Below, piece after piece: positions 420 to 33,026 of a stretch of 43,057 nt of DNA (positions are counted from its first letter, which is position 1; each line of letters opens with the position of its first letter). Origin of the DNA: Candidatus Gastranaerophilales bacterium (GTDB lineage: Bacteria > Cyanobacteriota > Vampirovibrionia > Gastranaerophilales > Gastranaerophilaceae); contig CAJOOA010000044.1 of NCBI GenBank assembly GCA_905236055.1, forward strand, positions 1-43,057, written 5' to 3'. The notes beneath the pieces were generated by a model. The model worked only from the letters and a program-made list of their open reading frames with translations. It was not told where the DNA came from and searched no databases. Made by a program: the position numbers and the translations under genes.

Positions 420-437
420 TTTGTAAATTTTTGTAAA
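420..437 (-). promoter_or_regulatory. HLR1-like element, perfect consensus match on minus strand; inverted partner of 379-396
   Basis: Reverse complement TTTACAAA-AA-TTTACAAA; 379-395 and 421-437 form a perfect 17-bp inverted repeat; -10-like TATAAA at 446-451. Confidence 0.6.
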
Positions 438-514
438 GATTAACGTATAAATCCTAAAGTTTTCAAAAAAAAAGCCGTTATACATGCAAAGGGAAAACCG
501 AAAAGGAGTAATTA

Positions 515-3088
515 ATGGCATCAGGAATAAGCGCATTTTACTTATTTGTAACGAAACATGGCGGCTTTGAGCAATTCAAGCGTGATGCTGATACTAACAG
601 TAATGACACAGTGCAATTTAATGAGCTGTACAATTACGTAATGTCAAACAATCAATTATCAGGTATTGTATCTGCTGATGATATGTATAATATTTGGAGA
701 GGTCTTGATGTAGAAATTACCGGAAACAACCCTGACGCATCAAACAGTGTATCAGAAGACGGTTCATTAAACGGAACTGAAGAGGATAGATTTAAATTTA
801 GAGTTACAGTTTATGGCGAAATGTCAGCAAAAGTTGGTGATGTGGTCAGAGAAATTGCGGGAAATAGCGCGTTTTCTGGTTACAACCTGAATGAAGATGC
901 ACTCGAAGCATTGGTTATAGACAGCATATTAGATGCTTGTAACGGGAATATTGAACGTGTATCGAGATATTTAAATACTTCTCAGGCAAATTCAGATATC
1001 AGAAAATTCGTCTTACAAGGCGCACTCGTTATGGTATCGGAAAAATTGTATGAAAGTATGCAATCTTATGTTGCTTCATACAACAACTATGAATTAAAAA
1101 ATGATAATGATTTAAAATCATTGATAAAAGGTTATATAAATACTCAGACAACAACTCAGGGAGTTGACCTAAATCAGATAGTAAATAATCTTACCAATAT
1201 TATAGGTAAGTATATGAATACAGCCGGAATAACGACGGGACAAACCTATAGCGCTCCTGTTGAATGGGAAGGCAAAATGAATCAGCTTCAGTTAGCTGTT
1301 TTAGAAACTAATTGGCGAAATGCCATAAATAATATTCCGGAAGCTTCTCAGTATAATTCATTTTCTGCAGAATTATTTGAAAATGCAATAGACACATTTA
1401 TTGATGCACAGAAAGCAATATGGACAGAGGCATCTACTAATGAATTTAGTACATACAATATCTCTGCCTCAAGCATTCAATCTATGTTCAGAGATTCTGA
1501 TGAAATGAACATACTTGACCACATTGTTCAAATGGGCGAAGTTGCAGATGACGTAGCCGGTTACGAAGGCAATTGGTCAGATTTCTATGGTGATGGTTCT
1601 GCTTCTCCGAATAGTTGGATGGGTGAAAATGATCCGAGGAGAATTGCAGCTGTAATATTCTACTTTGGCGGTTTCAATATATTCAATAATGAAGAGTTTT
1701 CACAACTGTTTACTCAAGATGTATTTATGAAATATTTAAAACTTGCATTTAAAGATATAACAGGCAATTTAGAAGAATATGGAATATCTAATACCTCTAC
1801 ATGTACTCAACAGGATTTGCAGAATGCTGTATTGAAGTACTTTAAGAATAACCTAAGAAGTATATTGCGTGATATGGGTGTAACTGATGAATCTGTTATC
1901 ACAAATGCTTTGTATATGAACTTTAATGGTACATATGACATAATCCATAACGAAAAAACAGAAAATTACGGCAATTATGAAATTGATGAATTGAGAACAT
2001 ACGCTCAGACTCTTGTTGACTATATAGTTAGCAAATATGGTTCAAATTCTGAAGTTGCCGAGGTAATAAATGAATACTACTTGTATGAGATAGAAAACTT
2101 AGATATCGACGAATTAAAGGAAGGTATTGATGCCCTGATGGAGGCCGTGAGAACAAGTGTGTCAGAATACCACAGACTTGATCCTGATCAGGCAGCTGCA
2201 GCTATCACGTTAACAGTTACAAATTTTGTGGATGCGAAGAATCCGTCTCATAAGCAGACTGTAAGGGTATGGTTGCGGAGCATAGCTGACAGATATCTTG
2301 AAGACTTTACCGGATGGAGTATTAAAGACTTTAAGGCCGGGTTAGAAGCTGAGTTCGAAAAATGGTATAACAGTCCAAGGGCAGTTCTGATGGCCGGAAT
2401 TGAAAACCTGGATTCATATAAAGCATTAATTGAAGAGGACTGTGATAATTATAATGGCTGTACCGACGAACAACTCGCAATGTTAAGACAAGTTCTGATA
2501 GATATGATTGATTACGCTTCTGTAATTGGCGTAAGACTCCGAACATTTAGTAATGGCGAACTCGATCCTGTAACTTTAGGTAATAATTACGGTACTTCAA
2601 ATGCTCAGGATTTGTACAACTTGATTATTGCAATAAAAAGACAAATCAATTCTATAAACGGAGGTGATATGGATGCCCTTGCCGGCAAGTACGGAGACGG
2701 TACTATAGAGATATATGTTTCTTCAAATGGTAAATATGTCAGCACATCACGCAGTGTATCAGCCAGTGAAATTGGAAACGTAAGTGTTAACAGCGATAAC
2801 GATACAGGATATACGTTATATTCTAAATTAGATCACGCAAAAAACCGTGTAAAATGTGGAATGTACGGAAGAATAAGAGAACAAGCGCAAAATGTATTTA
2901 ACAGATACAAAATTACTGGTTGGGAATCATGGTTTGAAAGTACATTTGATGAGAATGTAGGTGCTGCCGTTTGGGATAACTGCTATAGCGTTACAGGTGG
3001 TTGGAGAGTACATTTAAGAGATTCATGTAAAGACCTGAGAAGTTATATGCAATCAAGTGTCGAAAACTATATACGACAACATTTATAA
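515..3088 (+). CDS. Uncharacterised 857-aa protein with EF-hand-like loops near the N-terminus
   Basis: Long ORF with AAGGAG RBS (aaaaggagtaattaATG); N-terminal DTNSNDTVQFNE fits the 12-residue EF-hand loop; followed by a terminator. Confidence 0.9.
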   Translation: MASGISAFYLFVTKHGGFEQFKRDADTNSNDTVQFNELYNYVMSNNQLSGIVSADDMYNIWRGLDVEITGNNPDASNSVSEDGSLNGTEEDRFKFRVTVYGEMSAKVGDVVREIAGNSAFSGYNLNEDALEALVIDSILDACNGNIERVSRYLNTSQANSDIRKFVLQGALVMVSEKLYESMQSYVASYNNYELKNDNDLKSLIKGYINTQTTTQGVDLNQIVNNLTNIIGKYMNTAGITTGQTYSAPVEWEGKMNQLQLAVLETNWRNAINNIPEASQYNSFSAELFENAIDTFIDAQKAIWTEASTNEFSTYNISASSIQSMFRDSDEMNILDHIVQMGEVADDVAGYEGNWSDFYGDGSASPNSWMGENDPRRIAAVIFYFGGFNIFNNEEFSQLFTQDVFMKYLKLAFKDITGNLEEYGISNTSTCTQQDLQNAVLKYFKNNLRSILRDMGVTDESVITNALYMNFNGTYDIIHNEKTENYGNYEIDELRTYAQTLVDYIVSKYGSNSEVAEVINEYYLYEIENLDIDELKEGIDALMEAVRTSVSEYHRLDPDQAAAAITLTVTNFVDAKNPSHKQTVRVWLRSIADRYLEDFTGWSIKDFKAGLEAEFEKWYNSPRAVLMAGIENLDSYKALIEEDCDNYNGCTDEQLAMLRQVLIDMIDYASVIGVRLRTFSNGELDPVTLGNNYGTSNAQDLYNLIIAIKRQINSINGGDMDALAGKYGDGTIEIYVSSNGKYVSTSRSVSASEIGNVSVNSDNDTGYTLYSKLDHAKNRVKCGMYGRIREQAQNVFNRYKITGWESWFESTFDENVGAAVWDNCYSVTGGWRVHLRDSCKDLRSYMQSSVENYIRQHL

Positions 3089-3401: not shown

Positions 3402-4154
3402 ATGATTAACAGAAAATCTCGTGATGAAATAAAAAGAATGCGCCATGCAGGGCATATAGTTGCGCTGGTTCATAAAAAAATGCGTGAAGTGGTTGAGCCG
3501 GGTATTTCTACGAAAGAGCTCGATGCAATTGCAATGGAAGTAATTAAGGAAAATAAAGCAATTCCGACATTTCTAGGTTATAACGGTTTCCCGGCATGTA
3601 TTTGCACTTCTATAAACGAAAAGGTTGTCCACGGTATCCCTAATGAAAAAGAAATCCTTAAAGACGGCGATATCATTGCAATAGATGTCGGTGCAACTTA
3701 TGGCGGCATGGTTGGCGACAGTGCTTGGTCTTATGCTGTCGGTAAGATTTCGGAAGAAAAACAAAAATTAATGAAAGCCACAGAGGAAGCCCTTTTTGCC
3801 GGAATATCAAAGATGCGTGCCGGAAATGTACTTGATGATATCTCAGGTGCGGTAGAAGACGTTGCAAATTCATACGGGATGGGAATAGTTCGTCAGTACG
3901 GCGGGCACGGAGTCGGTCATACCATGCACGAAGATCCATTTCTGTTTAATTACAGAGTCGGAAATAAAACCCCTATTAAATCCGGCTATGTTATAGCAAT
4001 TGAGCCGATGTTAAACCTCGGTTGCGACGAGGTGTTTGTAGAAGAAGACGATTGGGGCGTAGTAACAAAAGACCGAAAACCGTCTGCGCACTTCGAACAT
4101 ACTGTTCTCGCTACAGACGGTGAACCAATTCTTATGACTACGTTATTAGAATAA
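3402..4154 (+). CDS. map: Type I methionine aminopeptidase
   Basis: MINRKSRDEIKRMRHAG…VHGIPN…GDIIAIDVGATYGGMVGDSAWSY…GGHGVGHTMHEDP…IEPM; classic MetAP. Confidence 0.96.
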   Translation: MINRKSRDEIKRMRHAGHIVALVHKKMREVVEPGISTKELDAIAMEVIKENKAIPTFLGYNGFPACICTSINEKVVHGIPNEKEILKDGDIIAIDVGATYGGMVGDSAWSYAVGKISEEKQKLMKATEEALFAGISKMRAGNVLDDISGAVEDVANSYGMGIVRQYGGHGVGHTMHEDPFLFNYRVGNKTPIKSGYVIAIEPMLNLGCDEVFVEEDDWGVVTKDRKPSAHFEHTVLATDGEPILMTTLLE

Positions 4155-4649
4155 GTCTGCAAGACGTTCTAAAAAGCTTCTTTCATCGTGAGTATATCCA
4201 AGTTCGCTCACCGGAATTACTATAGTTTCATTTTGCATTGGTCCATCTTCGACATAACTTCCATTGTTCAATGTTCCGTACGTTTTATACTTTTCTTGAT
4301 CATTATATTGATAAATAATTCCGGCTCTAATGCCTAAATCTTTTTTTACGCCTTTTAAGTCAATATCTTTCTTTACTGTTATATAATACACCGGGATATC
4401 TTCGCCAGTGCTATAGTCACGTTTAGTTCCTTTTGTTATGGTGTATTCGTTTGCATACTTGCTGATAAGTTCACGCAAATATTGTTCTGATTTTTCTCCG
4501 ACTTTTTCTTTATCACGTACAGGATTTTGATTCCCTTCTTCAGGATTTTTTACAGTGTAAATAGAATTTGTATATTTTGTACCATCATCCAAAGTTACGG
4601 CTTTATTATAGGTGGTGTTACTAATGTTAGCGTCAATTTTAAAAGACAT
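4146..4649 (-). CDS. Uncharacterised 167-aa protein
   Basis: ORF with strong RBS (aaaaaggagagaaatATG on minus strand); convergent 9-bp overlap with map. Confidence 0.75.
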   Translation of the reverse strand: MSFKIDANISNTTYNKAVTLDDGTKYTNSIYTVKNPEEGNQNPVRDKEKVGEKSEQYLRELISKYANEYTITKGTKRDYSTGEDIPVYYITVKKDIDLKGVKKDLGIRAGIIYQYNDQEKYKTYGTLNNGSYVEDGPMQNETIVIPVSELGYTHDERSFLERLADLF

Positions 4650-4772
4650 ATTTCTCTCCTTTTTAAACTCGTATGTATATATAAAGTTTATATATATAAA
4701 ATAATTGCCTAAAAAATTTTTATACTTTTAATAGATGCGCTATAATTGTTGTCATTACTGGTTTTAATATAA

Positions 4773-4790
4773 TTAACAAAACTTTACAAA
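4773..4790 (+). promoter_or_regulatory. HLR1-like element (one mismatch)
   Basis: TTAACAAA-AC-TTTACAAA; identical 18-mer recurs at 32935-32952. Confidence 0.5.
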
Positions 4791-4800
4791 AGCCCTAAAA

Positions 4801-4818
4801 TTTGTAAACTTTTGTAAC
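4801..4818 (-). promoter_or_regulatory. HLR1-like element, perfect consensus match on minus strand
   Basis: Reverse complement GTTACAAA-AG-TTTACAAA; TATAAT at 4826-4831, 8 bp downstream. Confidence 0.6.
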
Positions 4819-4891
4819 ATTTTTATATAATATTGAAATACGCATCTTTAATTCGTTTTTATATATATAAGTAATAAGATGGTATAAAAAG

Positions 4892-5329
4892 ATGGCAATA
4901 GCAAATTTACAAGAATCATTAATATCATACACTTTACGGAAAAGTGACCTTCAGTACGAGATTTCAAAACTGTGGGATATGAAAAATCTCTATGCTATGC
5001 AGTCATTGGATACCAATTCATTATTCAGTGCAGGCAAAAATGAACTTATAAAAAAATATAAAAAATTGTATGAAAACAATCCTGAATATCAAGCTAAGTA
5101 CGATAGCTACAGAGACATGGATGACTATATAGAAGAACTTAATAAATTAGAAGCACACTTCCAAGAACAGTTGGAAGAATTGTCAAATTGCGAAACGGAA
5201 ATCGATAATTCTATAACCCAAAAAGATGCAGATATGAAAGAAATAGAAGCTTACGAAGAAGCAATGAAGGCAATGCTTAAGAGCAATATACAAGGAGATT
5301 TCAGCTTCGGGGTTGCAACAGGGGGTTAA
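4892..5329 (+). CDS. Uncharacterised 145-aa helical/coiled-coil protein
   Basis: ORF rich in K/E/L/Q heptad-like sequence; starts shortly after a -10 box; ends 3 bp before the convergent antiporter gene. Confidence 0.75.
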   Translation: MAIANLQESLISYTLRKSDLQYEISKLWDMKNLYAMQSLDTNSLFSAGKNELIKKYKKLYENNPEYQAKYDSYRDMDDYIEELNKLEAHFQEQLEELSNCETEIDNSITQKDADMKEIEAYEEAMKAMLKSNIQGDFSFGVATGG

Positions 5330-32490: not shown

Positions 32491-32518
32491 AAAAGAGTAC
32501 CTTTCGGGGTACTCTTTT
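32491..32518. terminator. Bidirectional Rho-independent terminator (rpsP / convergent 79-aa ORF)
   Basis: AAAAGAGTACC-tttcgg-GGTACTCTTTT perfect 11-bp stem. Confidence 0.9.
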
Positions 32519-32757
32519 TATTTTACAAACAGATATGCATCTTTATTAAAATCTTTATTTACGTATTTTACAAAAATTTCCGACATATCTTCTTTTGGTT
32601 TTGTCATATAATTGCCTTTTTGCGGACTGGCTTTGTTTAGTGCCGCAATTTTTCGTTCTTCTCTTGCAAGCTGTTTTATCATGACTTTAGTGCCCCTCAG
32701 GATGGGAGGGACATCTTTGTTTTTTAAAATGTTTATAATGTCAAACAAATGCCACAT
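32518..32757 (-). CDS. Small uncharacterised ORF (79 aa), partly overlapping a palindromic repeat arm
   Basis: ORF ends at a bidirectional terminator; no convincing RBS at either M1 or M26. Confidence 0.45.
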   Translation of the reverse strand: MWHLFDIINILKNKDVPPILRGTKVMIKQLAREERKIAALNKASPQKGNYMTKPKEDMSEIFVKYVNKDFNKDAYLFVK

Positions 32758-32934: not shown

Positions 32935-32952
32935 TTAACAAAACTTTACAAA
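32935..32952 (+). promoter_or_regulatory. HLR1-like element (one mismatch), identical 18-mer to 4773-4790
   Basis: TTAACAAA-AC-TTTACAAA. Confidence 0.5.
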
Positions 32953-33008: not shown

Positions 33009-33026
33009 ATTATAAACTATTGTAAA
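33009..33026 (-). promoter_or_regulatory. HLR1-like element (one mismatch), inverted partner of 32935-32952
   Basis: Reverse complement TTTACAAT-AG-TTTATAAT; TATAAT at 33035-33040, 9 bp downstream. Confidence 0.45.

Follow-up and report, generated by a model that had tools for sequence, protein, structure and literature searches.

A reverse-oriented HLR1 site at a fixed distance from a conserved promoter points to probable activation by RpaB in non-photosynthetic Gastranaerophilales

Results

An HLR1 site upstream of the 145-aa gene

A perfect HLR1 site at positions 4801-4818 (minus strand) is probably an RpaB operator from which the phosphorylated regulator would activate, through a fixed 15-bp geometry, the promoter of a gene encoding a 145-aa protein (4892-5329, plus strand). 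The site belongs to the window, i.e. the whole stretch of 43,057 nucleotides that was analysed, which comes from a Gastranaerophilales-type MAG, a non-photosynthetic member of the Cyanobacteria with an RpaB gene. The unit is one operator with one promoter and not an element common to two genes, because the second, plus-strand site, the divergent 167-aa ORF and the upstream neighbour are all unconserved.

The initial annotation had placed an inverted pair of HLR1-like elements between two divergently transcribed genes, and its coordinates were all found again. The minus-strand site reads GTTACAAA-AG-TTTACAAA and matches the 18-bp direct-repeat consensus KTTACAWWNNKTTACAWW at every base, while the plus-strand site at 4773-4790, TTAACAAA-AC-TTTACAAA, misses it by one base in its TTAACAAA half. 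A spacer of 10 bp (4791-4800) separates the two, a TATAAT lies at 4826-4831, and the pair is intergenic, the ATG of the 167-aa ORF being at 4649 (minus strand) and that of the 145-aa ORF at 4892 (plus strand). The perfect site is reverse-oriented with respect to the 145-aa gene, with TTTTGTAAC as its proximal half and TTTGTAAA as its distal half.

Chance is an unlikely source of these HLR1 sites. The consensus was taken from the cyanobacterial literature with no fitting to this genome, and seven sites with at most one mismatch are present in the window vs 0.36 expected from dinucleotide shuffles. When the 242-bp intergenic region (19% GC) was shuffled 20,000 times with its dinucleotides preserved, a perfect HLR1 arose in 0.06% of cases and a perfect HLR1 accompanied by a second site with at most one mismatch in 0.015%. 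Furthermore, the 1.76-Mb genome displays 53 perfect sites vs 4 for the reversed-pattern control, and 13 congeners display 614 vs 45; the motif is enriched in photosynthetic cyanobacteria too.

RpaB and the other regulators encoded in the genome

Three OmpR-type regulators are encoded in the genome. One of them is assigned to RpaB by the NCBIfam equivalog NF045944 (353.2 bits for a cut-off of 330), the two others scoring 217 and 203 with the same model. The closest relatives of this RpaB are found in Candidatus Gastranaerophilales MAGs, with up to 93% identity, and it shows 72% identity with a Vampirovibrio MAG and 67% with the Synechococcus homolog. Upon alignment, no difference from the Synechococcus RpaB homolog is seen in the segment DTRVVDVHISRLRSKLE, which should hold the recognition helix in regulators of the OmpR family. 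Hence the HLR1-type identity first proposed for the elements is backed by a genome that both encodes RpaB and is enriched in the consensus.

Given the two further OmpR-type regulators, another member of this family, e.g. on C96 or C78, could bind the sites with the same rigid activator geometry, and direct repeats of the TTTACA/TGTAA type serve several OmpR-family regulators such as PhoP and WalR. We regard this as unlikely, since the motif corresponds letter for letter to the cyanobacterial HLR1, 10-bp period included, and since RpaB is the known HLR1 binder, the only regulator above the equivalog cut-off and unchanged in its putative recognition segment.

RpaB thus remains the preferred candidate for the binder. 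For the L198 protein, found on C42, NblS is the best NCBIfam model with 325.6 bits, far under the cut-off of 1000, and its domains follow the order HAMP-PAS-HisKA-HATPase, the HAMP match being sub-threshold; this NblS-like protein may be the kinase of RpaB. The genome also encodes a FliA-type sigma factor (FliA_WhiG, 226.9 bits for a cut-off of 189.6). The rpaB start codon is closely preceded by a one-mismatch HLR1-like site (L009:924-941); this site is weak and could be due to chance, but would be compatible with a possible autoregulation of rpaB.

The promoter of the 145-aa gene across orthologs

The upstream DNA of 30 orthologs of the 145-aa gene, sampled with no selection for the motif, was read; these promoters share ancestry and do not represent 30 independent events. 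In all 30 of them a reverse-oriented HLR1-type site is found exactly 15 bp upstream of TGAAAT. An alignment across related genomes had been suggested as a check of the pair, and its perfect half is indeed kept at a fixed place. The proximal half-site TGTAA is retained in 29 of the 30 promoters while the distal half is intact in only 10, TGTAA being replaced by TATTA or TGTTA in the other 20. The spacer itself (4819-4833) is invariant in length in 30/30 orthologs and poorly conserved in sequence, a feature shared by both promoter spacers, which combine a near-constant length with mean column identities of 0.54 and 0.57 respectively. The -35-like element TGAAAT (4834-4839) is invariant in 30/30 orthologs. 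It is followed 18 bp further by a -10-like region, TTTATATATA (4858-4867), and TTTATA is observed at exactly +18 from TGAAAT in 28 orthologs, the two exceptions being one at +19 and one TTTACA. The core is therefore TGAAAT-N18-TTTATATA, and the sigma-28 core TAAAGTTT-N11-GCCGATAA is not found there. In contrast, the TATAAT at 4826-4831, which had been pointed out in the initial annotation, is present in only one of the 30 orthologous promoters, the conserved core lying further downstream.

Based on these promoter boxes, the start site of the 145-aa gene would be near 4870. Because of this position of the conserved core, the HLR1 site would extend from about -70 to -52, which is nearer to an activating than to a repressing range. 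Indeed, in cyanobacteria RpaB acts as an activator at HLR1 positions of about -66 to -45 and as a repressor at positions of -38 to +23, over the start region (PMC13421787), and RpaB has been found to activate from 50-100 nt upstream (PMC11633204); the putative position of -70 to -52 is thus at the upstream edge of the first activating range and inside the second. It is on this comparison that activation is our best guess.

The repressing range is nevertheless relevant to a different arrangement of the same region. TATAAT (4826-4831) is preceded at 17 bp by TTGTAA (4803-4808), and RpaB bound to both sites of the pair (4773-4818) would cover the -35 of such a promoter and block one or both divergent genes. 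This two-operator repression seems quite unlikely, given that the TATAAT is not shared by the orthologs and that the plus-strand site was not seen in the other sampled promoters of the 145-aa gene. Moreover, the 167-aa partner (4146-4649, minus strand) is an orphan with no detectable relative in the 145 other family genomes, out of 146 in all, and the gene preceding the 145-aa gene is not the same in all relatives and in many cases is not divergent. Activation of the 145-aa gene from the perfect site alone is hence retained. The inverted pair as one unit serving two divergent genes, as the initial annotation had it, does not hold, and an operator common to both genes was rejected since both genes and both sites are not conserved together. 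The plus-strand copy can be considered as accessory or neutral, and is left unassigned.

Two promoter classes at the same spacing

The sites of the whole genome were obtained by pattern searches, together with the stretches around each match, all 53 sites being read with the gene to the right and the promoter classes sorted by a loose rule. Two promoter classes follow HLR1 at the same spacing. In class A (20 sites), HLR1 is located 14-15 bp upstream of a sigma-28 (FliA) promoter of the form nnTAAAGTTTT-N10-TGCCGWTATA, with the consensus cTAAAGTTTT...TGCCGttATA (cTAAAGTTTT...aAAAaaTGCCGttATAcAtg), in which the core TAAAGTTT-N11-GCCGATAA is present. Class B, to which the 145-aa gene belongs, shows TGAAAT, GTCAAT or GCAAT, then N18 and TTTATATATATG; it comprises about 14 clear sites, the loose rule having called 17 of the 53, some of them weak, while 16 of the 53 fit neither class. 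The sigma factor at C102 (L112), whose closest models are SigB/SigF/SigG below cut-off, is a candidate for the class-B promoters. Regarding orientation, the start of an ORF of 90 aa or more was found at a distance of 60-100 bp from the site in 28 cases on the reverse-oriented side and in 8 on the other side, the divergent arrangement of intergenic regions accounting for part of the latter.

The spacing was examined by a search from the second TGTAA to TAAAGTTT in which any gap of 8-36 was allowed. In the genome under study 21 such matches were obtained, 19 with a gap of 18 and 2 with a gap of 17, compared to 0 in the control; the 13 congeners together gave 231 vs 2, and matches are almost nil in photosynthetic members of the phylum. 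Among the 125 matches listed for 18 relatives, the gap is 18 in 94, 17 in 9 and 19 in 1, i.e. 104 at gaps 17-19, whereas it is 28-29 in 16, 8 in 4 and 22 in 1, so that 20 of the 21 others are about one helical turn off. Gaps of 18, 17, 19, 28-29, 8 and 22 correspond to site-to-nnTAAA spacers of 15, 14, 16, 25-26, 5 and 19 bp respectively. That these peaks are separated by roughly a helical turn speaks for a protein that contacts the DNA on a single face. In the case of the TGAAAT class, both gaps are exact in 27 of the 39 matches listed for four congeners. That the TGTAA repeats are instead an extended core promoter, an UP-like AT-rich element for the polymerase alpha subunits or the sigma factor, would agree with the rigid spacing to the -35 and the adjoining A/T tracts, but is very improbable in view of the near-invariant proximal TGTAA, G included, in orthologs not chosen by motif, of the sites found one helical turn away and of the enrichment of the motif in photosynthetic cyanobacteria, where it is RpaB's.

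The plus-strand site at 4773-4790 does not follow the spacing rule. On the side of the 167-aa ORF, a -35-like GGCAAT (4704-4709, minus strand) was read from the sequence and, by analogy with L005 and others, it would form with TTTATATATAC at 4675-4685 (minus strand) a class-B core with no HLR1 at 15 bp. The plus-strand site lies 63 bp upstream of this putative core, outside the observed set (not 15 or 25-26 bp), and its coupling to the 167-aa promoter was rejected.

Other sites of the window and the genes behind HLR1

A sister HLR1 site is found at 420-437 (minus strand), upstream of an 857-aa gene (515-3088), where it follows the 15-bp rule with a sigma-28 (FliA) type promoter, TAAAGTTT-N11-GCCGTTAT, at 455-481 (plus strand). 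This site is part of another inverted pair, 379-437, whose plus-strand member (379-396) faces the start, at about 216, of an rpsJ-like gene and could be placed in no promoter class. The pair at 379-437 is the only exact inverted pair (gap 2-30) of the genome, and the pair at 4773-4818 is unconserved; the inverted pair as a unit was therefore discarded. Two one-mismatch HLR1-like sites, 32935-32952 and 33009-33026, are located between an S16-like gene and that of a 448-aa membrane protein. The 18-mer of the first is identical to that at 4773-4790. In the leftward direction, TGGCAA follows this site after 15 bp and might serve a 79-aa ORF (32518-32757, minus strand).

The genes of the regulon are mostly devoid of Pfam matches. 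They include flagellins, a family whose sequences start with MGMAASQARLL and proteins in which EF-hand matches stay sub-threshold. The flagellin sites depart from the 15-bp rule: at L029, L077, L078 and L081, HLR1 is upstream and the sequence that follows it resembles neither class A nor class B; GAATTANGGAAC-like letters are shared by L029 and L078. The MGMAASQARLL family, which has no Pfam match, ends in a coiled coil and its members (e.g. L025:83-1420, L080:413-1447, L084:57-1412 and L002:471-1421, all on the minus strand) stand behind HLR1/sigma-28 promoters; our guess is that these proteins could leave the cell via the flagellar apparatus. A perfect HLR1 is also present at L026:1334-1351 (C25) upstream of a sigma-70-family gene (sigma factor in L111), with no 15-bp promoter recognised at this site.

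Relatives of the 145-aa gene were found in 81 of the 146 family genomes sampled. The protein itself has no Pfam or NCBIfam match, and its AF2 model (pLDDT 89.6) predicts a hairpin of two long antiparallel helices, residues 2-62 and 77-142. With this model Foldseek returned no solved structure at E <= 0.001; YscO (4mh6; TM 0.73, E 0.17) is no more than a lead, as helical hairpins match freely. By profile comparison, a 58-residue C-terminal stretch resembles the C-terminus of the MGMAASQ family (probability 93%, E 2.6e-7). At least two regulon families thus seem to have a part in common, which is a lead only as coiled coils can match by composition.

Discussion

In the mechanism that we propose, RpaB would bind two direct half-sites, spaced by 10 bp and oriented against the 145-aa gene. 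The 15 bp between this operator and the -35-like element downstream would keep the regulator on a single face of the helix, where it could contact RNA polymerase. From about -70 to -52, phosphorylated RpaB would activate promoters of both the sigma-28 and the TGAAAT class, under the presumed control of an NblS-type kinase. We infer RpaB as the binder, activation as its effect and the kinase control from sequence.

OmpR/PhoB-family activators (PhoB; RpaA, chains 9dvt/9dvu) similarly use direct repeats at a short fixed distance to the -35. As opposed to the PhoB operator, which overlaps the -35, a 15-bp gap is observed here, the other spacings being offset by roughly one turn of the helix. Sigma-28 promoters are usually read without an activator, and the class III flagellar promoters of FliA resemble those described here by their TAAAGTTTT-N10-TGCCGWTA core and by the FliA-type sigma factor encoded in the genome. 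They differ by the OmpR-family operator, which is found here 14-15 bp ahead of the core at about 20 promoters of a single genome, and we know of no other coupling between an operator of this family and sigma-28. An operator at fixed phase upstream of sigma-28 promoters would be an uncommon type of control.

The high-light regulon of Synechococcus and Synechocystis, governed by HLR1 and RpaB-NblS, resembles the present system in several respects: the same 18-bp consensus, an RpaB equivalog, an NblS-like kinase, a predicted position close to its activating range, and HLR1 upstream of a sigma-70-family gene (C25), as for cyanobacterial rpoD3/sigD. Unlike in that regulon, the targets are mostly uncharacterised genes, some of them flagellar, many of the promoters are of the sigma-28 type, and the sites share, for the most part, a single orientation and a single fixed spacing to the promoter. 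Homologs of rpaA, rpaB and nblS have been reported earlier in this lineage (PMC3787301, PMC4040986, PMC5877343). Indeed, those of RpaA, RpaB and NblS were described in Melainabacteria as early as 2013, when it was remarked that they 'may have another function', and no photosynthesis was reported for these bacteria (PMC3787301). In the open-access literature we found no paper linking HLR1 to Melainabacteria or to genes of the flagellum, nor any description of this architecture.

Since HLR1 is found at a fixed promoter distance across a non-photosynthetic family, the HLR1 switch of these gut relatives probably has a use unrelated to photosynthesis. More tentatively, RpaB of the Gastranaerophilales may be devoted to the co-activation of sigma-28 promoters and of those of a second class, acting on flagellins and on a large set of lineage-specific, possibly exported, surface or secreted proteins. 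The predicted targets and the promoter rule make the role of RpaB in Melainabacteria directly testable. The finding bears on the role of the RpaB circuit before, or apart from, oxygenic photosynthesis: if the co-activator role is ancestral, the HLR1 circuit would predate its photosynthetic use and would have been recruited later to light control.
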